A DNA stretch of 64,000 bases. Source: Bacteroidales bacterium (GTDB taxonomy: Bacteria > Bacteroidota > Bacteroidia > Bacteroidales > UBA12077). Of the stretch, positions 13,933 through 51,987 are shown piece by piece (position 1 is the stretch's first letter; each line of letters begins with the position of its first letter). Where the stretch lies: NCBI GenBank assembly GCA_028282785.1, contig JANQHE010000055.1, positions 1 to 64,000 on the forward strand, given 5' to 3'. A model generated the notes under the pieces. The model searched no databases and was not told the origin of the DNA. It worked only from the letters and a program-made list of their open reading frames with translations. The translations under genes were made by a program, and so were the position numbers.

Positions 13933-15184
13933 TCCCTATATATATGGATTACTATTTTTTCTACTCTTTTTATTCTTAATCCTTAAATCAGCATTCAGTT
14001 CTATTAACCCTCTGCAACTCGAACTTGATAAATCGAAAGTTAATTATCATAAACGTATTTTAAATTTTATCAGTGAAAAAACAACTGAATTTTCTATAGC
14101 AATTCATATTTGTTTCTTTTTGTGCCTCATTTCTATAGTTCTAATATTAAGAAACGATATATTCTCGCTTTTACAACCTATTCATTTATCACTTTCCAAT
14201 TTATTTTTTGCTATCATCATTGGTATTTTAATATTTCCCGGATTATTCATTTTACCAAAAACGCTTGGAGAATATTTTTCAAGTGAAATTGTGAATTTTT
14301 CATCTATTCCAATAATTATAATCTATATTTTGTTATATCCGTTTACCAAGCTTATTATATTATTATCAAATATTCCCATTAAATTAATTTATAAGGACAG
14401 TATAAAAGAAAATCAAAAAATAGATTTTAATAAAGAAGATCTAAATAAACTCGTAGCGGACAGTCAAAAACATTTGGAAGGAAATGAAGAAATTGATGCA
14501 GAAGTAAAATTATTTAAAAATGCGCTTGAGTTTTCTGATGTAAAAATTAGAGAATGCATGATTCCAAGAAATGAAATTACTGCTGTAGAGGTAAATGATA
14601 TTAACAATGAAATAAAATCGAAATTTATCGAAACAGGTTATTCTAAAATATTGATTTACCAGGAAAGTATTGAAAATATAATTGGATTTATTAAAAGTAA
14701 AAGCCTATTTAAATCTAAATCAGCTAATCAAAGTAGCGTACGAAATATTAATTACTTTCCGGAATCAATGCCAGCAAATAAACTGCTTAGATACTTTATA
14801 AGGTCCGGACAAAATATTGCTGTTGTTGTTGATGAATTTGGTGGTACCTCCGGAATTATAACTACCGAGGATATTTTGGAAGAAATATTTGGAGAAATTC
14901 AAGATGAACATGATACTGACGACTTATTTGAGAAAAAACTGAATAAAACCGATTTTGTTTTCTCAGGTAGATTAGAAATAGATTATATTAATGAAAAATA
15001 TCACTTAAATATTCCTGTAGGTGAAGAATATGAAACTATTGCCGGATTTATTCTTTACCATACCGAAAGTTTACCAAAAGCTAATGAAGAAATTAAAATT
15101 GACTCTTTTAAATTCAAAGTTTTAAAAGTAAGTGATACGCGCTTAGAGCTACTAAAAATAGAGTGTACAGACGATCAAGAGTAA
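13925..15184 (+). CDS. CNNM/CorC-family membrane protein with CBS domains
   Basis: This 419-aa protein resembles the HlyC/CorC 'hemolysin' family. It has an N-terminal DUF21-type domain with hydrophobic helices (to about residue 155), then a pair of CBS motifs (IRECMIPRNEITAVEV and IAVVVDEFGGTSGIITTEDI, about 213-228 and 297-316). The C-terminal CorC/HlyC transporter-associated domain ends near 416. Family members are linked to Mg2+ or other divalent-cation efflux; the 'hemolysin' name is historical. The start overlaps the small membrane protein gene. Its ion specificity cannot be read from sequence. Confidence 0.85.
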   Translation: MDDPYIYGLLFFLLFLFLILKSAFSSINPLQLELDKSKVNYHKRILNFISEKTTEFSIAIHICFFLCLISIVLILRNDIFSLLQPIHLSLSNLFFAIIIGILIFPGLFILPKTLGEYFSSEIVNFSSIPIIIIYILLYPFTKLIILLSNIPIKLIYKDSIKENQKIDFNKEDLNKLVADSQKHLEGNEEIDAEVKLFKNALEFSDVKIRECMIPRNEITAVEVNDINNEIKSKFIETGYSKILIYQESIENIIGFIKSKSLFKSKSANQSSVRNINYFPESMPANKLLRYFIRSGQNIAVVVDEFGGTSGIITTEDILEEIFGEIQDEHDTDDLFEKKLNKTDFVFSGRLEIDYINEKYHLNIPVGEEYETIAGFILYHTESLPKANEEIKIDSFKFKVLKVSDTRLELLKIECTDDQE

Positions 15185-39257: not shown

Positions 39258-40610
39258 TCACTCTTCAGTAATCAATTCAACTGCCATTTCCAAAGCCTTA
39301 TCTCTTCCATTTATTATATCATTTATATTTTGTGGTATAACAACATCAGGCGTTATACCCTTTCCTATATATTCAGTTCCATCCGGAAAAGTAGCCTTAA
39401 ACGTTGCCATACGGAAGGTGCCTCCACCCGGAAGGTTAAATTTATATGTATTTCCTGCACCTCCTTCGGAATTCCTACCTATAATAGTTGCCCTCCCTGC
39501 TGTTTTAAGTTCAATAACTGCATCTTCGGCAGAACTACTAGTAATTGCATTTATTAAAACAATTAACTTGCCTAAATATCTTTTACCATTTCTTGGTTGA
39601 ATAATATGTTTACTTACATTCCAATTATCCTTATTTTTTCCCCATGCTTTGTGGGCGGCGATGTGATGAAAATAGTACATTAATGGAGAACTGACAGGCT
39701 CACTAATTAAAGTTTCTACAATTTTTTTACTATTCCTGTCACTTCCACCGTTGTTATTTCTGAGATCCAAAACCATTCCTTTTACATTATCTAAATCAAG
39801 TGTGTCAATCACACCTTGAAACTGATTTGCTATATCATCATTATTTAAAGTAGGAATTTTTACATATAAAATATTTTTTTGATGCCATTGTATTTCAATG
39901 TTTGATGCCATCATATCTGATATAAATTCATACATAAATGCAGAACCTCCTTCGATAGCAGATTTTCTTTCCAGGGCTACATTTCTTATTTTCCCATTTA
40001 CATCTTTAATATTTAAATTTACTTTTTTATCATTTGGGCCATATAATAAATAAAAAACAAAAGCAGCTTCATTTGAATGTTTTGAACCAAAAGTATAATA
40101 TCTTAAAACATTGTTTTCAAAATATTTTTTCACAGGAATATCTTCGACCTTAAGTATCTCAATACCCGGAACAATCCTGTTTTGTTCTAAATCATCCGCA
40201 ATTCCTACTCTTGAAATATAAAACTTATCGTTAATAATAGTTATTTCAAAAGGAGGAATGTCATAGTTTGGTCTAAAATAACCCCAGGGAGGAATAATAT
40301 TGGTATGTGAATCCTGCAAAAGAGTTGTAAATTCCATAAGAACCTTATAATAAGATTCTTCGTTTGTAGCTTCGCTTACCTTCGATATATAATCCGTAAT
40401 AAGATTATCCCAATCCAAAGTTTCCAATTTTTCGGGGTATGGAAATCCAAATTTCACTTCTGACCAGATTGTGATTAACCCTCTAATTCGTTCTTCGGTA
40501 CTTACATCCCATTCTTTATTTTCAATGTTTTTATTATTTATCGATTGGCTATAAGTATTAATTGTTAGTATTGCTAGTAATAGTAATGTATTAATTGATT
40601 TTTGTTTCAT
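39258..40610 (-). CDS. Secreted S41-family peptidase
   Basis: This 450-aa protein has a signal peptide (about 1-21, ending TYSQS), a helical N-terminal region, a PDZ-like part near 115-165 and an S41 protease domain. The catalytic serine is probably S359, in ITSSSAEDAV (356-365), with GGGS- and GDxG-like loops around LDLRNNNGGS (281-290). The lysine expected in GKG of the Ctp type is missing (GRNSEGGAG), so it may use a tricorn-like arrangement. It lies 26 nt after a permease gene and ends that operon. Substrate is unknown. Confidence 0.85.
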   Translation of the reverse strand: MKQKSINTLLLLAILTINTYSQSINNKNIENKEWDVSTEERIRGLITIWSEVKFGFPYPEKLETLDWDNLITDYISKVSEATNEESYYKVLMEFTTLLQDSHTNIIPPWGYFRPNYDIPPFEITIINDKFYISRVGIADDLEQNRIVPGIEILKVEDIPVKKYFENNVLRYYTFGSKHSNEAAFVFYLLYGPNDKKVNLNIKDVNGKIRNVALERKSAIEGGSAFMYEFISDMMASNIEIQWHQKNILYVKIPTLNNDDIANQFQGVIDTLDLDNVKGMVLDLRNNNGGSDRNSKKIVETLISEPVSSPLMYYFHHIAAHKAWGKNKDNWNVSKHIIQPRNGKRYLGKLIVLINAITSSSAEDAVIELKTAGRATIIGRNSEGGAGNTYKFNLPGGGTFRMATFKATFPDGTEYIGKGITPDVVIPQNINDIINGRDKALEMAVELITEE

Positions 40611-40636
40611 AATAGTTAAATTTAATAGTGTTCAGT

Positions 40637-43036
40637 TTATTCATATCTAATTGAATCAACAGGGTTTTTACGTGCAGCAATAAACGCAATAATATTAGTT
40701 GCGATTAATGCTATTAATAATGCTATAAAAGGTGTAGTTACAAACACAAACCATTTTATAGTATTACGATACGCAAAGTTTTGAAGCCAATTATTTATAA
40801 AATACCAGGAAGCAGGAGCAGAAATAACCGAAGATATTATGATAGATATAAAATAATCTTTTGAAATTAAAAACATTATTCTATTTACGCTTGCTCCCAA
40901 GACTTTTCTAATACCGATTTCCTTTGTTCTCTTTTCTGTTGAATAAGCTGTTAAGCCATATACTCCCAAACACGCAATAACAATTGCAATTAACGTAAAT
41001 ATGAAAAATATACGATTTACATTTATATCTGATTTATATTGTGATTCATATTTTTCATCTAAAAAAAAGTATTCAAACGGGTAATCAGGATATATTTCAT
41101 CCCACTTTTTTGAAATGGCATCTAGTGTATTCTTTGAATAGGTACTATTTAGTTTGATGGATGTAAAACGCCTTAATGTTTTGTCTTTCCATATGATTAT
41201 TGGTTTTACTTTATTGTGTAATGATGCATAGTGAAAATCTTTACACACACCAACTATTTCAAGTTTTAAATCTTCCGGTTCTGTTTTGCCAATTGGCAAC
41301 CTAAATGATTTACCAATCGGATTTTTAATTCCAAATTCGTGCACTAATGTTTCATTTACAATAATTTTATTTTCGTCAGCCTGGGAATCAGGTAAAAAAT
41401 GGCGACCTTCCAAAATATCGATATTCATTATTTGCAAAAAATTATCCTCGCATTGCAAATTCAAAATCATCATCATATCTTTTCGTGTAAAACCATCTCG
41501 ATAAAATCCTCTCCGCTGATTAAAACTGCCGATACGGTTTGATGATGCAGACACATCTGAAACACCTGTAATATTAAGCAATTCATTTTTAAATGAAGGA
41601 AATTTAGATCTCATATCGCTATTTCGTAAGGACATCACAATCACATTTTCCTTGCTGAACCCTAAGTCCTTATCGTTTATAAAATCCAGCTGGATTTTGA
41701 TTAACCAAGTACTGCTAAGCAGGAATATGGATATCACAAACTGAATTACTATCATAGTATTCCTGAAAAGGTTTTTTTCTTTACCGGATTTACGGTTTCC
41801 TTTTAAAATTCTTATAGGCTTTAAAGAAGACAAATATAATGCAGGATACGAGCCGGCCATTAAACTGATAACAGGAATAAAAATGATTATAATCAACCAG
41901 TTTATATTATTTTTAAGAATGTAATCAAAGGGATAATTCGATATTGAGTTGAATAGCGGGGCTATAAGTTTTAGAATTAATAAGCCCAAAATAAAACTCA
42001 CAATAACTAAAAATACCGAGTCGGCTAAAAACTGATTAAAAAGTGAAGTTTTTTTTGCCCCAAAAATCTTTCGAATTCCTATTTCAAGCTGGCGTGTTGA
42101 TGAATTTGCAATGGATAAATTAATATAATTTATGGATGAAATAACAATAATTAAAACTGCAATTACAATAAAAATATAAACCGTAGTAATATTGCCATTT
42201 TGTTTAATTTCATGTGTGATATTTGATTTTAGGTGAATATCTGTTATGGGTTGTAATTTAAGTTCAAGCTTTGAACCGGATTCTTTAAGTGCATCTCCTA
42301 CATGTTTTTGGAATACTTCGTTTATTTTTGATTCTAAGTCGCTAATATTCTTAGTGTTAGTTTTTATATAATTCAGATTTGTAAATGCGAATAAATTATT
42401 AAATAAACGCTCGTATCGTGGGTTTGAATACAAACTTGCCCTGCTAACAAGAACATCAAAACCTATATGAGAATTTTGTAATGGTTCTTTTATGATTGCC
42501 GTAACTGTGTAATCTACCTTATTATCCCATTTTATAATTTTACCTATCGGATTTTCGTTTCCAAAGTACTTTTTTGCTATACTTTCTAACAATACTAATG
42601 AATAAGGCTCGTTCAATGCAATATTTACATCACCAACTACATTATATGTAAACATCTTTAAAAAAGACGAGTCTGCATATAAAATTCCTTCCTGGTATAT
42701 TTTATTTTCATTATAGTTGAACAAAACCGCTCGTGGGAGTTGGATGAACCTGCTGAACATATTAACTTCCGGTACTTCTCTATGAATTATTTCTCCAACA
42801 GGGCCACCACATACCGCAGCTTCAAACGAAGTTCCTGACATTTCTCCAGTAAGTTTTATACGATAAATATTTTCGGAGTTATCATGATGTTGATCATAAC
42901 TTAACTCATTATTTGTATAGGCCATTATTCCAATAAAACAAGCTAAACCAATTGATAAACCTAAAATATTTATTAAAGTATAGATTCTGTTCTTCCAATA
43001 ATTACGTATAGTAACTTTTATATAGTTTTTAAACAT
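40637..43036 (-). CDS. FtsX/MacB-type ABC transporter permease, copy 1
   Basis: This 799-aa membrane protein has an N-terminal helix (about 20-40), a MacB-like periplasmic domain and two FtsX units: three helices at about 280-430 with the segment RQLEIGIRKIFGAKK, and a second set at about 680-790 with TKEIGIRKVLGAS. It ends PVDSIRYE, as usual for the family. Such permeases work with a LolD/MacB ATPase, but no ATPase gene is near. It is 11 nt after the second permease gene, in one operon with the S41 peptidase. Role may be efflux, lipoprotein or peptide handling, or sensing; unknown. Confidence 0.88.
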   Translation of the reverse strand: MFKNYIKVTIRNYWKNRIYTLINILGLSIGLACFIGIMAYTNNELSYDQHHDNSENIYRIKLTGEMSGTSFEAAVCGGPVGEIIHREVPEVNMFSRFIQLPRAVLFNYNENKIYQEGILYADSSFLKMFTYNVVGDVNIALNEPYSLVLLESIAKKYFGNENPIGKIIKWDNKVDYTVTAIIKEPLQNSHIGFDVLVSRASLYSNPRYERLFNNLFAFTNLNYIKTNTKNISDLESKINEVFQKHVGDALKESGSKLELKLQPITDIHLKSNITHEIKQNGNITTVYIFIVIAVLIIVISSINYINLSIANSSTRQLEIGIRKIFGAKKTSLFNQFLADSVFLVIVSFILGLLILKLIAPLFNSISNYPFDYILKNNINWLIIIIFIPVISLMAGSYPALYLSSLKPIRILKGNRKSGKEKNLFRNTMIVIQFVISIFLLSSTWLIKIQLDFINDKDLGFSKENVIVMSLRNSDMRSKFPSFKNELLNITGVSDVSASSNRIGSFNQRRGFYRDGFTRKDMMMILNLQCEDNFLQIMNIDILEGRHFLPDSQADENKIIVNETLVHEFGIKNPIGKSFRLPIGKTEPEDLKLEIVGVCKDFHYASLHNKVKPIIIWKDKTLRRFTSIKLNSTYSKNTLDAISKKWDEIYPDYPFEYFFLDEKYESQYKSDINVNRIFFIFTLIAIVIACLGVYGLTAYSTEKRTKEIGIRKVLGASVNRIMFLISKDYFISIIISSVISAPASWYFINNWLQNFAYRNTIKWFVFVTTPFIALLIALIATNIIAFIAARKNPVDSIRYE

Positions 43037-43047
43037 TACAGATAATT

Positions 43048-45459
43048 TTACTCGTATTTAATAGAATCAACGGGGTTTAACCTGGCAGCTTTTAGTGTAT
43101 GAGAAGCAACCGATAACATTGTAATTAACATAACAATAATTACGGGAATAATAAATAACCAAACTGTAATTGACATTTTTACAGGGAAATTATTTAACCA
43201 AAACATAATACCCCAAAACAAGATAGGAATAGCAATTAATAAAGCTATAAATATCAGAGCCAGGTATTCTTTAAGAATATGTTTCACGATATCAAAAAAA
43301 TTAGCTCCATGAACTTTTCTTACACCAATTTCTTTTGTTTTAAGTTGAACAGTATAAAGGGATAATCCGAATAAACCTAAGCAGGTAATGAAAATTGCTA
43401 ATGATGAAAAGATACCAAACACACTACCAAATTTTCTGTCCGCATTAAATTGTTCGTCGTAATAAATGTCGAGGAAGAAAAAGTCAAAAGGATTTCCTTT
43501 AAATAAGTTATTCCACAAGATCTCAATGTTTTTTAGATTTTTTGGTATATCAGATTCTTCTAATTTGACTGAAAAATTTCCGAACCTGCTTTCATCAGGG
43601 AGATATCTGAATATTTGAGGCTCAGGAACTGCTTTTGGTGATTCGTGGCGGTAATCTTTTAGTACTCCAATTACTTTGTAAATTCTCCCCCAATAATTAA
43701 CTTCATTATTTAGTGCATCTTCCGGGCTTTCAAATTCCAGGTGTTTTACAGCTGTTTCATTAATAATTAATGCGTCTTTATCCGAAGGAAATTCTCTTGA
43801 AAAGTTCCTGCCATTAACAAATACCATATCGTATAAATCAATAAATCTATCATCAACGCCCATAATCATGTAATTTTTACCCTGTGATTGATCCAGACCA
43901 ACTTTAAATATTCCACCATTATCCCACCATATTTTTCTTCCGGGTACTTCGGTTGAAAATGCAACTCCTTTTATTCCGGATAGCTTGGATATCTCCTGTT
44001 TAAATGTTTCTTTCTTTTGAACAATGGTTGAATCAGTTGCCTTTGGCATTTTAACCACTAATGTTTGTTCCATATCAAAACCCGGGTTTTGATTTTTAAG
44101 AAATTGCAATTGATTGAAAACAGTGTAAGTTCCTGTAATCAAAATAATGGAAATTATTAATTGAAAAATTACCATCACCTTACGCAGGCCTATACCTTTT
44201 GGCGTTGAAAAAAATTTACCTTTTAAAATTTGAACAGGCCTAAAAGAACTTAACGAAAAGGCCGGATACATTCCCGTAATAAATGTTCCAAACAGGAATG
44301 TTCCAAACAAAAAGATAAGAAACCACTGATTTCCCCAAACGTTTATATCAGTGGGGATTCCTGTTAATTTTGAAAATACGGGCATAAATAATTCTATTAT
44401 TGCAATGGCAATAAACAATCCAATAATATTAACAACGGCGGCTTCCGTGTAGAATTGACCTAACAGGTTTTTTCTCGCAGCCCCAACAACCTTCCGAACA
44501 CCTACTTCCTGTGCACGTTCCACCGACCGGGATGTTGTGAGGTTTATATAATTTACCCAGGCAATTATTAATATAAATAATCCAATAATGTACATAAAGT
44601 TTACAGAACGCAGATCCCCATTTACTTCCTGCTCTTGCAATAAGTGCGATGTTAAATGAATATCTTCAATTGCCTGTAAATTAAAATACATGGTAACGCC
44701 CCATTTTGTTAAAATCTCTCCAATTTGTGATTTAGTATATTCAATAAATTCTTCTTCCATTTTTCGCGGGTCTGCTTTCTCATCTAAAACCAGGTAGGTG
44801 AATGCCCCGGTATGCCCCCAGGATTGTAAATATGATTCTCCACGCCACCTGATTAAATTAGGAAAAGACATTAATATTTCAGGTTTCAAATGAGAGTTTG
44901 GAAGAACATTCTCAAAAACTGCAACCACCTTGTAATCTTCCTTTTTATTTAATCTTAAACTTTTACCAACAGGATTTTTATCTCCAAAATACTTTTTAGC
45001 AACTAATTTATTTATAACTATTTGATTAGGTTGGCTTAATGCATTTTCAATATCTCCATCAAGGATGTCAAATTTTAGAATATCAAAAATTTCCTGTTCA
45101 GCGTAGTATATTTTTTTTTCGATAAATTTATTTTCTCCATACGAAAAGATTGCTTCCCGCACCGCCATCCTGGCTATTTTTTTTATTTCCGGAAAATTTT
45201 CTTTAAGTAATGGAGCGATTACCGGGCAAGCAGATGCAAATTCCACATCATCGCCATTATCTTTTAACCTACCATAAGTTAAACGATATACATTTTCGCT
45301 ATTAAAGTGATAAGTATCGAAACTTTTTTCGTAACTGATATAATGAAAAATTAAAGCTGAAGATGCGATCCCAATTGCCAATCCAAGTATGTTTAATACG
45401 GTAAAAATTGTTTTATTTAATAAGATGCGTTTTGCAATTACTAAGTAGTTTTTTATCAT
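43048..45459 (-). CDS. FtsX/MacB-type ABC transporter permease, copy 2
   Basis: This 803-aa paralogue has the same layout: N-terminal helix (about 18-40), a periplasmic MacB-like domain, an FtsX unit with RAQEVGVRKVVGAARK and a second unit with TKEIGVRKVHGAN, and the end PVDSIKYE. It is the first gene of the minus-strand operon. It faces the two-component system across a 230-nt divergent promoter region that contains a 9-12-9 direct repeat. No ATPase partner is encoded nearby. Confidence 0.88.
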   Translation of the reverse strand: MIKNYLVIAKRILLNKTIFTVLNILGLAIGIASSALIFHYISYEKSFDTYHFNSENVYRLTYGRLKDNGDDVEFASACPVIAPLLKENFPEIKKIARMAVREAIFSYGENKFIEKKIYYAEQEIFDILKFDILDGDIENALSQPNQIVINKLVAKKYFGDKNPVGKSLRLNKKEDYKVVAVFENVLPNSHLKPEILMSFPNLIRWRGESYLQSWGHTGAFTYLVLDEKADPRKMEEEFIEYTKSQIGEILTKWGVTMYFNLQAIEDIHLTSHLLQEQEVNGDLRSVNFMYIIGLFILIIAWVNYINLTTSRSVERAQEVGVRKVVGAARKNLLGQFYTEAAVVNIIGLFIAIAIIELFMPVFSKLTGIPTDINVWGNQWFLIFLFGTFLFGTFITGMYPAFSLSSFRPVQILKGKFFSTPKGIGLRKVMVIFQLIISIILITGTYTVFNQLQFLKNQNPGFDMEQTLVVKMPKATDSTIVQKKETFKQEISKLSGIKGVAFSTEVPGRKIWWDNGGIFKVGLDQSQGKNYMIMGVDDRFIDLYDMVFVNGRNFSREFPSDKDALIINETAVKHLEFESPEDALNNEVNYWGRIYKVIGVLKDYRHESPKAVPEPQIFRYLPDESRFGNFSVKLEESDIPKNLKNIEILWNNLFKGNPFDFFFLDIYYDEQFNADRKFGSVFGIFSSLAIFITCLGLFGLSLYTVQLKTKEIGVRKVHGANFFDIVKHILKEYLALIFIALLIAIPILFWGIMFWLNNFPVKMSITVWLFIIPVIIVMLITMLSVASHTLKAARLNPVDSIKYE

Positions 45460-45580
45460 GATTTCTATATTTTAATCAAAAAACCTTTAGAATTTCTGAT
45501 AAAGTAAGTTAATATAATTACTTAAACACAAAACAATCAGCAAAATATGAAAAAAGGTTAATAAATATTTCTTTTTCTAT

Positions 45581-45610
45581 TTACTGAAAAAACTTTGCAT
45601 TTTACTGAAT
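45581..45610. promoter_or_regulatory. Putative LytTR operator A (9-12-9 direct repeat)
   Basis: TTACTGAAA (45581-45589) and TTACTGAAT (45602-45610) are direct repeats with 12 nt between them, a 21-bp period. On the other strand each reads TTCAGTAA, close to the 9-bp half-sites of LytTR regulators, which bind two such repeats spaced by 12-13 bp. It lies in the divergent region between the permease operon and the LytTR system, 59 nt before a -7 box of the latter. Confidence 0.6.
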
Positions 45611-45668
45611 AAAAATTAAGTTTCATTTATTATTCATTCATTTGAATAATAATTAAATTGTACCGTAC

Positions 45669-45676
45669 TATTTTTG
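45669..45676 (+). promoter_or_regulatory. Candidate -7 box of the two-component system genes
   Basis: TATTTTTG matches TAnnTTTG exactly and lies 13 nt before the histidine kinase start. The nearest TTTG is at 45641, 24 nt upstream, slightly wider than usual, as may occur in an activator-dependent promoter. Confidence 0.4.
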
Positions 45677-45689
45677 TAAAAACAATGGA

Positions 45690-46703
45690 ATGAATATTAA
45701 AAAAATAAGAATATTTGCTCCGGTTATATTCTGGGTATTTCAATTTATTGTTCATATCATACGGAATATATACATTATAATGGATAACTCTTTTATTACC
45801 ATTCTCAATCCGATAAAAGTGACTTATCCTTTAGATATTATTACATTCCTTGTATTTTATTTCTATTTTGCTCCGCATTTGTATAAAAAAGAACGTTTGA
45901 GTTTTTATATTTTTTTAATCATATGTTATATTCATGCCTATAGTTTTGTATGGTCGTATGTATATTATAGTCTGGGCATTACTGATATCAATCAATTAAA
46001 GTTATATTACTTTTCAAGTATCGGGCATTCTTTACTTAATGGTTTTTATGGTATTGTTTTCAGGTTTGCAATTGACTGGTTCGAAAACCGTGAAAAAAGA
46101 AAAGAACTTGAACAGCAAAATATTAAAACTGAACTTGCACTGCTTCGCTCCCAAGTTAATCCTCATTTTTTATTTAATGTCTTAAATAATATAAATTCAT
46201 TTGCTACAAAAAACTCTGAAAAAACTTCATTTGCAATAATAAAGTTATCGGAGATAATGCGGTATATGCTTTATGAAGCTAAAGAAGAAAAAGTTCTTAT
46301 AGAAAAGGAAATTAAGCATATTGAAAATTACCTGGCACTGCAAAAAATGAGGTATAAATCGCAAGATTTTGTTGAGTTTATATGTGACTGCGGAAATGCA
46401 AATATTTTGATTCCTCCGATGTTATTCATTCCGTTTATTGAAAATGCTTTTAAACACGGGAGAAAAGGGAATGGAAATAAAATTATAATCCGGTTAACTG
46501 TTTTAAAAAGTATAGTAATATTCGAATGTATTAATACAATTAGAAAACTTAATGATACTGAAAAAAATAAATATGGTGGTTTTGGAATAGGAAATATCAA
46601 ACGAAGATTAAAGTTGCTCTTTCCCGAAAACCATCAGTTGATTATTGAATCAAAAAAAACAACGTATAAAGTTAACTTAACCATAAGCATTCATGAAAAT
46701 TAA
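45690..46703 (+). CDS. LytS/YehU-type sensor histidine kinase
   Basis: This 337-aa kinase has four hydrophobic helices in the first 130 residues and no sizeable periplasmic domain. The His_kinase domain follows, with phospho-acceptor H159 in NPHFLFN (157-163). The ATPase part has IPPMLFIPFIENAFKHG (N box) and GGFGIGNIKRRL (G box). It would autophosphorylate and pass phosphate to the LytTR regulator, whose gene overlaps its end by 11 nt. With little extracytoplasmic sequence it may sense via a partner, for example one of the adjacent permeases; this is inference. Confidence 0.92.
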   Translation: MNIKKIRIFAPVIFWVFQFIVHIIRNIYIIMDNSFITILNPIKVTYPLDIITFLVFYFYFAPHLYKKERLSFYIFLIICYIHAYSFVWSYVYYSLGITDINQLKLYYFSSIGHSLLNGFYGIVFRFAIDWFENREKRKELEQQNIKTELALLRSQVNPHFLFNVLNNINSFATKNSEKTSFAIIKLSEIMRYMLYEAKEEKVLIEKEIKHIENYLALQKMRYKSQDFVEFICDCGNANILIPPMLFIPFIENAFKHGRKGNGNKIIIRLTVLKSIVIFECINTIRKLNDTEKNKYGGFGIGNIKRRLKLLFPENHQLIIESKKTTYKVNLTISIHEN

Positions 46704-47397
46704 TTGTATAGTTATAGATGATGAACTTCCTGCTATAGAACAAATGGAAGAATATATAACAAGAATTCCATTCTTGAATTTACTTGGAAGTTTCGATAAT
46801 GCTATCGAGCCCATTAATTTTTTGAAATCAAACTCTGTTGATCTGATTTTTCTTGACATAGAAATGGAGGGGTTTACCGGGCTTCAATTGATTAAAACTT
46901 TACAACATAAACCTAAGATTGTTTTAACCACAGCCTATGACCAATATGCAATCGAAGCTTTTGACTTAAATGTTTCTGATTATTTATTAAAACCAATTTC
47001 ATTCGAGCGTTTTATAAAAGCTATTGATAAAATCTTTGACTCTTACACGGAAACTAATATAAAAACCTCAAACGAACCGGTTTATAAGCGGGATTATTTT
47101 TTTGTTAAAACTGAGTTTAGAATGCAAAGAGTTGATTTTAAAGATATTTTATTTATTGAAGGAATGAATGAATACTTAAGAATTAATACAACCAAAGAAA
47201 AAATAATGACTCTTCAAAACTTTAAATCCCTAGAAGATATCTTACCTAAAAACAATTTTGTTCGTGTGCATAAATCGTATATGGTTGCCATAAACAAAAT
47301 TGACAGCGTAGAAAAAAACAGAATTAAGATTGGAGAAAAACTAATCCCTGTAAGCAATACTTATAAAGATGCTTTTTACTTAATACTGAACAAGTAA
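46693..47397 (+). CDS. LytTR-family response regulator
   Basis: This 234-aa regulator has a receiver domain with acidic pair D9-D10, phospho-acceptor D55, T80 and K100, then a LytTR DNA-binding domain (about 130-232, with RVDFKDILFIEGMNEYLRI). LytTR proteins bind pairs of 9-bp direct repeats. Two such pairs are found in the flanking gaps (45581-45610 and 47428-47457), supporting a local regulon. Confidence 0.93.
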   Translation: MKINCIVIDDELPAIEQMEEYITRIPFLNLLGSFDNAIEPINFLKSNSVDLIFLDIEMEGFTGLQLIKTLQHKPKIVLTTAYDQYAIEAFDLNVSDYLLKPISFERFIKAIDKIFDSYTETNIKTSNEPVYKRDYFFVKTEFRMQRVDFKDILFIEGMNEYLRINTTKEKIMTLQNFKSLEDILPKNNFVRVHKSYMVAINKIDSVEKNRIKIGEKLIPVSNTYKDAFYLILNK

Positions 47398-47427
47398 GAA
47401 CTTCCTGGAAAATTTGATTCGTTTCAG

Positions 47428-47457
47428 TTACTGATTATTTTTCTTAATTGACTGATT
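47428..47457. promoter_or_regulatory. Putative LytTR operator B (9-12-9 direct repeat)
   Basis: TTACTGATT (47428-47436) and TGACTGATT (47449-47457) repeat with 12 nt between them, the same 21-bp period and the same core ACTGA as operator A. It lies between the response regulator and the subtilase gene. A near -7 box TACAATTG is at 47553-47560. Confidence 0.55.
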
Positions 47458-47603
47458 TCTTTTCATAACAAGATGTAAATTAATTTACTTAGCATTAAAA
47501 TGTTAACTTACGAAAAGATTCTTCAGAAAATTTCTAAAAGGATTTTATTATATACAATTGAATACGAAATCTTAAGATAATATCCTTTGAAACAAAATTC
47601 ATT

Positions 47604-49202
47604 ATGAAAAAAATAAATCTCGTTTTAATAATCACTTGTTTTCTCAATATTCACATATTTTGTCAACCGAATAAAAGTAAAGATTTACCAATAAACTGGC
47701 ATCACCTAAGTTATGATTTAAATTCGATTCCTGGAATTAGTACAAACAGGCTATATAATGAATTATTAAAGGAGAAAACTTCAACAAAGATAATAGTTGC
47801 TGTTTTAGATGCCGGAGTTGACATTATGCATGAAGATTTAAAAGAAAATATTTGGGTAAACAAAGATGAAATTCCAAATAACGGAATTGATGATGATAAA
47901 AATGGATATATTGATGATGTACATGGCTGGAATTTTCTGGGAAATAAGAATGGTGAAAATCTACATTATGATACATGGGAAATCACTCGTAAATATCAAA
48001 AGCTTCGTGATAAGTATTCCATAATAGATACTACGGATTTAACCGAATTACAAAAAAAAGATTTTTATGATTTTAAAAGGCTCGAAGCAGATATATTTAA
48101 TCAAAGATCAGAAGCAAAAAAAATGTTTGATCGCTTAACTGCTTTTCGAGAAGAACTTTATAAAAACATTGAAATCGTTAAACCATATTCTAAAAATAAA
48201 GAACTAACCATTGAACTCTTAAAATCGATTGATACAAAAAACGATACTACCGCTGAAAAAGCTAAAGTTAGATTAATAAAAAGCTATGAGGTAGACTATA
48301 CTAAACAATTTACTGACCTTATATATAACAGCTATAAAAATAAGTATAAATACAAGTTAAATCCTGATTTTGATAATAGATATATAATTGGAGATAATAC
48401 CGAAGATCTAAACGAAAGATATTATGGGAATCCTGATGTAGCTGGGCCGGATCCTTTTCACGGGACATCAGTTGCAGGTATTATCGGGGCTATCCGGGGT
48501 AATAAGATGGGAATTGATGGAATTGCCAATGACGTGTTGATTATGCCTGTAAGAGTTATTCCTTCGGGAGATGAACGCGATAAAGATGTGGCTAACGCAA
48601 TTTATTATGCCGTTGATAATGGTGCAAAAATTTTAAATATGAGTTTTGGAAAACCAATTAGCCCATTTAAAGAGCATGTTGAAAAAGCTATAAGATATGC
48701 GGAGGAGAAGTGTGTGTTGTTAATTACAGGGTCCGGGAACGACGGAGAAAATATTGATTCATTTCCAAGATATCCTAATAAATATTATTCAGATGGAACA
48801 GAATGTAAAACCTGGATCAATGTTGGAGCAACATCCTGGAAGTTAGATTCCGAATTTGTTTGTTCCTTTTCAAACTATGGAAAAAATAATACAGACTTAA
48901 TGGCTCCCGGAAATAATATTACGACTCTATATCCTGAAAATAAAATAATATTGTCCGAGGGGACAAGTATTTCAGCTCCAATGGTTTCCGGAGTAGCAGC
49001 ACTTGTTTGGTCGTACTTTCCCGGGCTTACTGCCCAACAAATCAAAAAAATCTTATTAGAATCTATTGATTATTATGGTGATTTGGGAGTAAATCAACCA
49101 TCTGCAGAAAACAAAAATATACTGTTTAAGAATTTATCAAAAACCGGCGGAGTTATTAACGCTTACAAAGCATTTTTACTAGCTATGGAAGAATCAAAAT
49201 AA
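47604..49202 (+). CDS. Secreted S8-family (subtilisin-like) serine peptidase
   Basis: This 532-aa protease has a signal peptide (about 1-21) and the S8 triad: D69 in AVLDAGVD, H286 in FHGTSVAG and S455 in GTSISAPM, with the oxyanion asparagine N379 in GSGND. Between D69 and H286 there is an insertion, about 110-265, rich in charged residues, as in a Bacteroidota subgroup. It lacks an obvious propeptide and C-terminal sorting domain. It would be exported to the periplasm or surface. It follows operator B, so the LytTR protein probably controls it. It could mature the small peptide encoded downstream, but that is inference. Confidence 0.9.
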   Translation: MKKINLVLIITCFLNIHIFCQPNKSKDLPINWHHLSYDLNSIPGISTNRLYNELLKEKTSTKIIVAVLDAGVDIMHEDLKENIWVNKDEIPNNGIDDDKNGYIDDVHGWNFLGNKNGENLHYDTWEITRKYQKLRDKYSIIDTTDLTELQKKDFYDFKRLEADIFNQRSEAKKMFDRLTAFREELYKNIEIVKPYSKNKELTIELLKSIDTKNDTTAEKAKVRLIKSYEVDYTKQFTDLIYNSYKNKYKYKLNPDFDNRYIIGDNTEDLNERYYGNPDVAGPDPFHGTSVAGIIGAIRGNKMGIDGIANDVLIMPVRVIPSGDERDKDVANAIYYAVDNGAKILNMSFGKPISPFKEHVEKAIRYAEEKCVLLITGSGNDGENIDSFPRYPNKYYSDGTECKTWINVGATSWKLDSEFVCSFSNYGKNNTDLMAPGNNITTLYPENKIILSEGTSISAPMVSGVAALVWSYFPGLTAQQIKKILLESIDYYGDLGVNQPSAENKNILFKNLSKTGGVINAYKAFLLAMEESK

Positions 49203-49316
49203 TTAATTTAAGGTTTAAATTTAGGTAATTGTTAAATATTTGCAGATACTATAAACATCATATTATTAAAAAATTACTTTTCAATAAGTACCTATTTTAT
49301 AGAATATTTAATAAAA

Positions 49317-51743
49317 ATGATATCATTTTTTCTAAAAACAACCTTTAGAAACTTAATTAAAAATAAAGTATTTAGTTTAATAAATATTATTGGATTAACT
49401 ATTGGTATAACAAGTTTTATTTTATTATCTATTTACGTAAAACATGAGTTAAGTTATGATAAATTCTTTAAAAATTCAGAACGATTATATAGAGTTGGAT
49501 TGAAATACAATATTGATGGGGTTCAATACTATTCTGCTTTAAATCCTGTTCCTCTGGCACAAGGCTTAAAAGAGGATTTTCCTGAAATCGAAAACGTAAC
49601 TAGATTATATAATAGGTATTTTTCCGGTGGATACACTTTTGTAACATATGAAGATCGACAATACAAAGAAGAAAAACTATATTGGGCCGATTCAACAGTA
49701 TTTGAAGTGTTAGGAATCAATTTACTTCAAGGAAATCCTAAAATTGCATTGAAAAATACCAATTCTGTTGTTATTACACCAAAGGTTGCTGAAAAGTATT
49801 TTGGAAATGAAAATCCATTGGGTAAAATCTTAAAATTTGATGATGCGAAAGTTTACCATGTAACTGGAATCGCAGAGCCATTTCCGGAAAATTCGCATTT
49901 ACATTTTGACCTTTTAGCATCCATTCATACCAACCAAAAGTTAGTAAAACATCCCGATTGGATCGATGTAAAAAACTATGTTTATATACTACTAAAAAAG
50001 GGAGCTACAATAAATCAAATAACAAATAAAATTGAGAAGTTCCAAAAAAAGTATTTAGAGCCAGAAGTAAAATACATTACTAAATTAAGTTACAATGAAT
50101 TTAAAGAAAAAGGCAATGAATTTAACTTCTTATTTGAGCCGATTACAGATATTCATTTAAAAACAATTTTTGAGGGAAATACTGAACAACAATCAGATAT
50201 TAGAAAAGTAAGAATATTTACAATTATTGGTTTTATTATTTTGTTAATTGCTTGCATTAATTTTATTAACCTAACCACTGCCTTTTCAGTTCAAAGAGCC
50301 AAAGAAGTCGGGGTAAAAAAAATACTAGGTGCCTCGAAACGATTGATTATAAACCAATTTTTAATAGAGACTCTATTTGTAACATGTATTTCGTTAATAA
50401 TAAGCCTAATAGCTGTTAAGTTTTGCCTTCCTTTTTTTAACAATCTATTAAATCTAAAGTTGCAGTTTTCTCTTTTCAGTAATTGGTATAACATTCCAGT
50501 TGTGGTATCTATGTTAATTGTTATAAGTTTTCTGGCTGGAGGTTATCCATCTTTGATCTTGTCATCGTTCCGCTCCGTAGATGTTATAAAAGGTAAGTTT
50601 ACGGCAGGTAAAAGTGGTAAATACACAAGATCTGTTTTAGTTATAGTTCAAAATTCGGTTTCTGTTTTACTAATTATATCAACCTTAATAATCTTTTTAC
50701 AACTTAATTATTTGCACAAAAAACCATTAGGTTTTGATACTGAAAACTTACTCATTATTCAACGTCCCCATAAACTTAAAAATAACACACAAGCATTTAA
50801 GGAAATCATAGATAAAAATCCTAACATAATAAATTCAACATTTTCATATGGAGCACCGCAAATGGTTGTTGAAGCAATGGTATACTATTCAAAAGAGAAA
50901 AATATTGAAGAAAGTTATACCGTCTCTCGTTTTCCTTCTGACTTTGATTTTATTGATACTTATAACCTAAGACTTATAAAAGGAAGGAAATTAGATAAAT
51001 CATTTTCGATGGATTCCGTTGCTGTTGTTTTAAATGAAACAGCAGTCCGTGTAATGGGATTAACAAATCCATTAGAAAAAGAAATTTATTATTCATACGA
51101 AAAGGAATTACCTTTAAAAATTGTCGGGATTGTTGAAGATTTTCATACAGGCCCCCTTCAAAATCCCATAAAACCAACAATAATTAATATTAATAGAGAC
51201 CGTCCACCAATGTACTATATTGTTAAATATCGTGAAAACAAAACAAAGGAGGTAATTGAATTTATTCAAAATAAATGGAAAGGATTTTTACCAGGAGATG
51301 TTTTAGATTATAAAATACTGGAAGATCACATTAAAACCCATTATAAAAATGAAGATCAATCCGGAAAGGTTCTTTTGATATTTGCGGTACTCTCCGTGTT
51401 TATTGCCAGTCTTGGATTATTTGGAATGGCTTCTTACACAACTAACTCACGTGTAAAAGAAGTTGGCATAAGAAAAGTATTAGGTGCTACACAGGCTAAA
51501 ATATTAAATATAATGCTAAAGGATCTATTAAAACACGTCATAATATCAAATGCTATTGCATGGCCAATAGCCTTTTATATAATGTTAAGTTGGCTAGAAA
51601 ATTACTCATATAAAATCAATATTGAAATTAAGAGTTTTATATTAAGTGGCCTTATTTCACTAATTATAGCTTTTTTAACAGTTAGTTATAAAGTATTGAA
51701 AATTTCCATGATAAATCCTACACAGTGTTTGCATTATGAATAG
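49317..51743 (+). CDS. FtsX/MacB-type ABC transporter permease, copy 3
   Basis: This 808-aa protein is the third paralogue: N-terminal helix (about 19-39), periplasmic MacB-like domain, first FtsX unit with RAKEVGVKKILGASK, second unit with VKEVGIRKVLGAT, and an end QCLHYE that differs from the usual DSIRYE. It lies 114 nt after the subtilase gene and 75 nt before the small peptide gene. No ATPase is adjacent. Copies 1 and 2 look closer to each other in their ends than to this one. Confidence 0.88.
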   Translation: MISFFLKTTFRNLIKNKVFSLINIIGLTIGITSFILLSIYVKHELSYDKFFKNSERLYRVGLKYNIDGVQYYSALNPVPLAQGLKEDFPEIENVTRLYNRYFSGGYTFVTYEDRQYKEEKLYWADSTVFEVLGINLLQGNPKIALKNTNSVVITPKVAEKYFGNENPLGKILKFDDAKVYHVTGIAEPFPENSHLHFDLLASIHTNQKLVKHPDWIDVKNYVYILLKKGATINQITNKIEKFQKKYLEPEVKYITKLSYNEFKEKGNEFNFLFEPITDIHLKTIFEGNTEQQSDIRKVRIFTIIGFIILLIACINFINLTTAFSVQRAKEVGVKKILGASKRLIINQFLIETLFVTCISLIISLIAVKFCLPFFNNLLNLKLQFSLFSNWYNIPVVVSMLIVISFLAGGYPSLILSSFRSVDVIKGKFTAGKSGKYTRSVLVIVQNSVSVLLIISTLIIFLQLNYLHKKPLGFDTENLLIIQRPHKLKNNTQAFKEIIDKNPNIINSTFSYGAPQMVVEAMVYYSKEKNIEESYTVSRFPSDFDFIDTYNLRLIKGRKLDKSFSMDSVAVVLNETAVRVMGLTNPLEKEIYYSYEKELPLKIVGIVEDFHTGPLQNPIKPTIININRDRPPMYYIVKYRENKTKEVIEFIQNKWKGFLPGDVLDYKILEDHIKTHYKNEDQSGKVLLIFAVLSVFIASLGLFGMASYTTNSRVKEVGIRKVLGATQAKILNIMLKDLLKHVIISNAIAWPIAFYIMLSWLENYSYKINIEIKSFILSGLISLIIAFLTVSYKVLKISMINPTQCLHYE

Positions 51744-51817
51744 CCGAATGATGTAGTTACGAATTAACTCAAGTTAATTGTATAAATCTGATTATTAACA
51801 ATTAAAATTAAACTATT

Positions 51818-51919
51818 ATGTTAGAAAAATTAAAAAAATTTGAACTTACCAATACTCAAAAGAAGAGTATTAAAGGAGGTATGAACAAAACTGAATTAGT
51901 GAAAGCGGTAGGTGGTTAA
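51818..51919 (+). CDS. Small double-glycine leader peptide (33 aa)
   Basis: This 33-aa peptide begins MLEKLKKFELT and reaches a KGG at residues 19-21, the layout of Bacteroidota double-glycine leader peptides ('natural product precursor, GG' type: a short start with charged K/E and hydrophobic L/F residues, ending in GG). The residue part is MNKTELVKAVGG (22-33), 12 residues with no cysteine and a single threonine, so a modified lanthipeptide is unlikely; an unmodified signal or bacteriocin-like peptide is more plausible. A strong terminator starts 40 nt after the stop. No C39 exporter or modification gene is in the window. Confidence 0.7.
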   Translation: MLEKLKKFELTNTQKKSIKGGMNKTELVKAVGG

Positions 51920-51958
51920 AAGAAAGGAACCATAAAACATTCTTTAAGCAAACAATTG

Positions 51959-51987
51959 AGGCTTCGATTTTTCGGGGCCTTTTTATT
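51959..51987 (+). terminator. Terminator of the small peptide gene
   Basis: The stem GGCTTCGA / TCGGGGCC (8 bp with two G-U pairs in RNA) has a TTTT loop and is followed by a T run. It directly follows the peptide gene and supports that this gene is transcribed. Confidence 0.75.

Follow-up and report, generated by a model that had tools for sequence, protein, structure and literature searches.

We analysed a 64,000-nucleotide stretch of DNA from a Bacteroidales bacterium of the UBA12077 lineage (assembly GCA_028282785.1, contig JANQHE010000055.1, positions 1 to 64,000), hereafter the window, whose source genome (G000) measures 5.50 Mb. The window contains a LytS/LytTR two-component system set between two arms of genes for peptidases and FtsX/MacB-like permeases, and our subject is the makeup of this locus and what it may do. 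A LytS-type histidine kinase (45690..46703, + strand, 337 amino acids (aa); His_kinase PF06580, E=1.6e-25) is followed by a LytTR response regulator (46693..47397, + strand, 234 aa; Response_reg PF00072 and LytTR PF04397). The two genes overlap by 11 bp and form one putative operon. By simple hydropathy, the N-terminal part of the kinase shows hydrophobic segments with short loops.

Facing the kinase and regulator is a divergent arm on the - strand. It holds two duplicated MacB_PCD-FtsX permeases (Pfam), FtsX_A1 (43048..45459, 803 aa) and FtsX_A2 (40637..43036, 799 aa), and ends with an S41 peptidase (39258..40610; PF03572, E=1.2e-26) whose hydrophobic N-terminal stretch looks, by eye, like a signal peptide. 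Downstream of the regulator, and on its own + strand, lie an S8 peptidase (47604..49202, 532 aa; Peptidase_S8 PF00082, E=7.9e-47), a third duplicated permease of the same kind, FtsX_B (49317..51743, 808 aa), and a 33-aa open reading frame (ORF; 51818..51919) whose double-glycine-type leader (LTNTQKKSIKGG) is followed by a tail of 12 residues ending in GG. Just 3' of this ORF, a hairpin followed by a T run has the form of an intrinsic terminator (51958..51981, + strand); the terminator scan found 1 against a shuffle mean of 0.0, with a fold z=-4.1. All three permeases match MacB_PCD and FtsX above the Pfam cut-offs, which points to the Type VII ABC/MacB permease fold.

A reading made earlier from the letters and their translations, without database searches (the sequence-only reading), had described this arrangement of kinase, regulator, proteases, three permeases and short double-glycine ORF. 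We find the genes to be as described and the large ones to be backed by Pfam. The span it gave, 45460-51987, takes in the kinase, the regulator and the downstream arm but omits the divergent operon at 39258-45459.

Both arms are preceded by candidate LytTR operators

LytTR sites typically consist of 9-bp repeats with a 12-bp gap and show little sequence conservation across systems, according to the available text of PMC6193735. Each of the two intergenic regions of the locus holds one 21-bp-spaced direct repeat built on ACTGA cores (45573-45614 and 47423-47464), and both follow the operator spacing rule of 9-bp direct repeats, 12 bp apart, ahead of their targets. The first (45580..45608) lies in the divergent intergenic region, with its ACTGA cores 21 bp apart; the second (47427..47455), which has one mismatch to the pattern, lies upstream of the S8 gene. 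The two 9-12-9 repeats with a common core, which had been placed at the entries of both arms, are thus indeed there.

In the whole genome, the pattern TTNACTGA-N13-TTNACTGA has one exact match (45580-45608). When up to one mismatch is allowed it has 17, both window sites included, compared with 4 for a reversed control. Fifteen of these sites fall outside the locus; 12 of them lie within ORFs of 70 aa or longer, the other 3 in intergenic sequence. In the two window intergenic stretches together only ~0.001 matches would be expected by chance. As the pattern was taken from the window sites themselves, however, this rarity is not by itself a fair test. Independent support comes from a genome of the same genus, G016, whose equivalent divergent intergenic stretch carries ACTGA-N16-ACTGA (half-sites starting at 14505 and 14484, minus strand, in L109). 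In none of 29 other regulator loci did the 450 bp upstream of the kinase hold a full ACTGA pair; G016 is one of these 29, its pair sitting one gene further upstream. The matching repeats, and the retention of core and repeat in G016, support the earlier suggestion that a single regulator may control both arms.

Elsewhere in the genome we observed a near-identical pair of 29-bp elements, near position 1501 of L022 and L026 (G000:C55:346416 and G000:C76:78185). The genes downstream of them are similar to each other, with an export-type N-terminus and a ITGTASGFGKATA-like start, and look by eye like dehydrogenases.

The locus is a LytTR version of a common local layout

The stretches of the source genome that we read contain 41 distinct duplicated permeases. 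Among 34 permease cluster rows, some of them at contig ends with one side unseen, 19 stand head-to-head with an NtrC-type regulator and a kinase, as assigned by blastp with sample proteins confirmed by Pfam (stretches L228, L229, L231, L233-L238, L240, L242-L244, L247, L248, L250 and L252). The window shares the head-to-head layout and the permease class of these loci. Its layout is therefore the LytTR variant of a common one, and the locus is a LytTR version of the local permease/two-component architecture. What is new here is the regulator swap: LytTR and direct repeats replace NtrC and, at some loci, sigma-54-like elements. Apart from the window's own, no LytTR match in this genome has a MacB_PCD match within 10 kb; at C65, a LytTR gene has one 10 kb off.

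Sigma-54 control of FtsX-like permeases has been proposed, and a permease COG is enriched in Bacteroidia, in the available text of PMC12316311. In 18 of the 19 NtrC-type permease loci, the adjacent regulator carries GAFTDA or GSFTDA rather than GAFTGA. The hexamer TTGGCA, scored alone and with no control, stands ahead of FtsX in 8/19 of the NtrC-type intergenic regions. A strict sigma-54 pattern occurs in 0/19 of these regions and a relaxed one in 6/19, counting either strand. A fuller -24/-12-like pattern, which was shaped post hoc, is present in 4/19 when read toward FtsX and in 0/19 toward NtrC, with a shuffle mean of 0.075, and it occurs in 0 of the 3 window promoters. We also note that GAFTDA/GSFTDA regulators coexist with sigma-54-like elements ahead of several of their permeases.

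The core of the locus is retained in a second genome

The regulator, FtsX_B, S8, FtsX_A2 and FtsX_A1 served as queries against 59 genomes (our own and 58 relatives), with at most 17 permease and at most 48 regulator candidates scored per genome. The regulator was also searched in 25 genomes of the family, and 80 LytTR loci, many of them shorter, were kept of 563 from a named genome collection. Across the 59 genomes, the 25 family genomes and the 80 collection loci kept, the full gene set was not seen outside our own genome. Among the 59 genomes, S8 matches outside the locus reach at most 48% identity, with a paralogue in our own genome at 45% (G000:C55:120137), and the best FtsX_B match among the candidates scored is 38%. 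As S8 and FtsX_B are matched only distantly in the 58 relatives, the genes do not make up a conserved system as a whole, and the conserved linkage that the sequence-only reading had proposed as a check is not supported. The S8/FtsX_B arm has the look of an addition specific to this lineage, putatively brought under the same control.

In G016, the regulator is 85%, the kinase 63% and the divergent FtsX_A2 67% identical to their window counterparts. The divergent operon there holds an S41-type gene (in two overlapping reading frames), an aspartyl-protease-like gene and FtsX_A2, and another LytTR regulator precedes the kinase. On the other side, the neighbour in G016 is a glycine cleavage H-protein gene, whereas the window locus is flanked on the left by a MraZ gene and on the right by an Acyltransf_2 gene and an acetyltransferase gene. 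These different flanking genes indicate that the core pair has been held together in another chromosomal setting.

The permeases also have orthologues of their own. FtsX_A2 has one at 66% in G011, and FtsX_A1 has orthologues at 64-72% in 7 relatives, where the stretches read contain neither an ATPase nor a LytTR system. In the collection, a locus from Pinibacter soli (L157) has a duplicated permease just downstream of the LytTR regulator, on the opposite strand. When the regulator was searched against plasmids, all matches were below 60% identity, and in the literature on LytTR, FtsX-like permeases and Bacteroidota we found no description of LytTR-linked FtsX loci. Separately, the genome G008 holds a fragmentary relative of the regulator (L114, 10588-15920; 63% over 91 aa, with an internal stop), one gene from a duplicated permease with an NtrC-type regulator facing it.

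Coupling-helix motifs point to a possible ATPase in trans

Pfam identified no ATPase gene among the nine locus proteins. The sequence-only reading had treated this absence as distinctive, but only 2/34 permease clusters, C49 and C29, have an ATPase-bearing direct neighbour (detected by motif regex, then blastp and Pfam). A missing ATPase gene is thus normal for these permeases and no special feature of the window locus. At C39, C63, C43 and C3, ATPase-like genes are found at a distance of at least three genes from the permeases; the one at C63 is an ABC ATPase three genes from its permease.

The motif E-[IV]-G-[IV]-[RK]-K-x-x-G-A occurs in both halves of all three window permeases, between predicted transmembrane helices 2 and 3, and the major coupling helix of MacB is placed between the same two helices (PMC5985334, available text). 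Coupling-helix positions E330, K335 and G338, and E715, K720 and G723 in the second half (FtsX_B numbering), rank among the 40 best-conserved columns of the 41 permeases, and FtsX_B aligns to MacB 5LIL at these positions by phmmer. Conserved coupling-helix motifs argue for a nucleotide-binding partner in trans, and the ATPase for the window permeases may be encoded away from the locus.

At C49, the permease has an ABC ATPase of 227 aa directly after it (G000:C49:18822-21988, in L239). Across 8 other genus members, identity is 86-96% for this ATPase and 68-86% for the C49 permease; in one genome of another family (L080) the values are 76% for the ATPase and 40% for the permease. ATPases are often more conserved than permeases. 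On these sequence comparisons, the C49 ATPase is a candidate partner in trans. At C29, the gene after the duplicated permease encodes a protein of 1024 aa that combines a Beta-lactamase-family domain (PF00144) with ABC_tran (G000:C29:39555-45068, in L253).

Relation to known systems

Like BceAB-BceRS of Firmicutes, the locus genetically links a permease of the FtsX/MacB superfamily to a two-component system, and the window kinase has little extracytoplasmic sensor sequence, as is the case for BceS. Unlike BceAB, the locus has no dedicated ATPase gene beside the permease. BceB has ten transmembrane helices and one large domain (PMC5985334), whereas the window permeases are duplicated and have two periplasmic domains, with two MacB_PCD and two FtsX stretches each. 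The locus further differs from BceAB-BceRS in its LytS/LytTR pair, its proteases and its Gram-negative phylum. The likeness to BceAB-type sensors proposed earlier thus extends to MacB/FtsX-type permeases with a related fold, but the locus is not a BceAB system.

Two other comparisons are informative. Members of the ADOP family (TIGR03434) likewise carry two MacB_PCD-FtsX units per chain and typically have no adjacent ATPase, as in the window. Unlike ADOP proteins, the window permeases are linked to a two-component system, and they score 252.4, 247.5 and 222.1 bits against a TIGR03434 cut-off of 622.3. With LytTR Regulatory Systems such as HdrRM and BrsRM, the locus shares 9-12-9 direct repeats and likely autoregulation. 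In those systems, which are not two-component systems, the partner of the LytTR regulator is an inhibitory membrane protein (PMC6193735), whereas the window regulator has a receiver domain and an adjacent kinase, which places the locus outside that group.

A proposed model for envelope sensing by the locus

In MacB-like proteins, conformational change is relayed to the periplasm from cytoplasmic ATPases; relatives of BceAB sense peptides jointly with a two-component system (PMC5985334, available text). Our data are consistent with a model, to which we give about an even chance, in which the locus is an envelope-sensing module, with a LytS/LytTR system head-to-head with duplicated MacB/FtsX permeases and an ATPase from elsewhere. 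According to this model, a change in the envelope, such as an antimicrobial peptide, a lipid or a stalled export substrate, would alter the permeases or the membrane and thereby activate the kinase; the short loops of the kinase would fit sensing via the permeases. The phosphorylated LytTR protein would then bind the ACTGA direct repeats and drive both arms as well as its own operon. The permeases would move their periplasmic domains by means of the ATPase encoded elsewhere, and the S41 and S8 peptidases may be exported and act in the periplasm or outside the cell.

Several observations weigh against this model. The FtsX_A1 orthologues of 7 relatives, and FtsX_A2 in G011, lie away from any LytTR system, and only 3/80 of the LytTR collection loci kept have a duplicated permease within ~10 kb. 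The nearest collection regulators (79% in L121, 80% in L184 and 66% in L122) face an outer-membrane beta-barrel receptor or an ankyrin protein, and no ACTGA-type repeat was found at these three regulator loci. TTGGCA is absent from 11/19 of the NtrC-type intergenic regions, and the strict coupling-helix regex fits both halves in just 21/41 permeases. With FtsX orthologues located elsewhere and so few permease-bearing collection loci, the link between permeases and LytTR rests on two genomes, in which regulation of the divergent permeases by the two-component system is plausible.

These points bear on an alternative that we consider unlikely, though a real possibility: that the LytTR system has nothing to do with the permeases and regulates itself, and perhaps outer-membrane genes elsewhere, while the permeases and proteases became its neighbours by chance insertion. 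It would account for the regulators of other Bacteroidales at 79-80% identity, which face an OMP_b-brl_3/TonB-type gene, and for the location of FtsX_A1 elsewhere in relatives. It accounts less well for G016, in which the system and FtsX_A2 stay together despite a different chromosomal context, for the matching repeats of both arms, or for the finding that a head-to-head two-component system is the commonest permease setting in the genome (19/34).

A second alternative, which we hold to be improbable, is that the permeases, together with a MacA/TolC-like apparatus, move a protease or other secreted product in export or maturation, and that the two-component system only tunes dosage. MacB family members are capable of tripartite export (PMC5985334, available text), and the three window permeases resemble the darobactin exporter subunit DarB, although at 153-165 bits they are far under the cut-off of 700. 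Against this, adaptor, outer-membrane channel and ATPase are all absent among the nine locus proteins by Pfam.

Envelope sensing by permeases that lack an ATPase of their own, if true, would mean that Bacteroidota hold many Bce-like sensing units of this kind. The LytTR case would then amount to a natural experiment: regulator class and promoter elements change against a constant permease class, which would make permease-kinase coupling testable. The puzzle of orphan FtsX permeases would also turn into a concrete question, namely which ATPase, if any, powers them. A wider proposal, which we regard as improbable, is that dozens of duplicated FtsX permeases, many with their own head-to-head two-component system, are served by a single conserved ATPase or a small shared set of them, and so act as parallel envelope sensors with a common motor. 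In the window, the regulator would have been swapped to LytTR, and an arm of protease, permease and peptide captured.

The 33-aa ORF and double-glycine leaders in the genome

The 33-aa ORF, which resembles the double-glycine leaders of Bacteroidota, scores 13.4 bits against PF14406 (Bacteroid_pep), whose gathering cut-off is 25, and an NCBIfam scan gave no match. We found no further copies of the ORF in our own genome, the only one searched for it. In 25 genomes, our own included, PF14406 gave weak matches in two, all below the cut-off and neither at the locus. No C39 peptidase/exporter is present at the locus; the genome has four C39 matches (E<=0.01), on C76, C70 (two) and C1, and two other ORFs with double-glycine leaders adjoin C39 proteins. 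In first-order Markov sequence, look-alike ORFs arise at ~4 per Mb, so that the 3 counted over 665 kb of real sequence, where ~2.7 would be expected, are no excess. The best support for the ORF is its placement between FtsX_B and the terminator; as a peptide gene it is doubtful, and its predicted role is weakly supported. For the earlier suggestion that the peptide is a signal or product, we found nothing showing either.

A peptide-signalling module, in which the double-glycine peptide would be exported, trimmed by S8 or S41, sensed via the permeases or the kinase and self-inducing through LytTR, comparable to Firmicute quorum sensing, is improbable: although the leader type, the terminator just 3' of the ORF, the position of repeat 2 ahead of the S8/FtsX_B/ORF operon and the C39 exporters elsewhere in the genome, with two double-glycine-leader ORFs beside C39 proteins, all speak for it, the locus has no C39 gene, the ORF is single-copy in the genome and under the PF14406 cut-off, its look-alikes are as frequent as in Markov sequence, and S8 and FtsX_B are just distant matches in the relatives searched.

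Bacteroidetes class I lanthipeptides have double-glycine leaders with C39 proteases, according to the available text of PMC7268733. On C70, we observed a class I lanthipeptide-type cluster with Lant_dehydr_N, Lant_dehydr_C, LANC_like and a C39-domain gene (L261, 8143-15075, - strand), and within it a 56-aa ORF with a double-glycine leader. Also on C70, a 51-aa ORF that contains cysteine and has such a leader comes after the gene for a VKOR-thioredoxin-C39 fusion protein (L263, 7914-9782, + strand).

Two minor features of the locus concern its base composition and the start of its central operon. Upstream of the kinase, TATTTTTG (45669..45676, + strand) fits TAnnTTTG, which we take to be the Bacteroidota -7 element; no TTG was found at a fitting distance from it. 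The G+C content is 27.3% for the kinase and 28.8% for FtsX_B, and 280 ORFs from other stretches have a mean of 32.1% (sd 3.0%). The base composition of the locus is inside the genome range.

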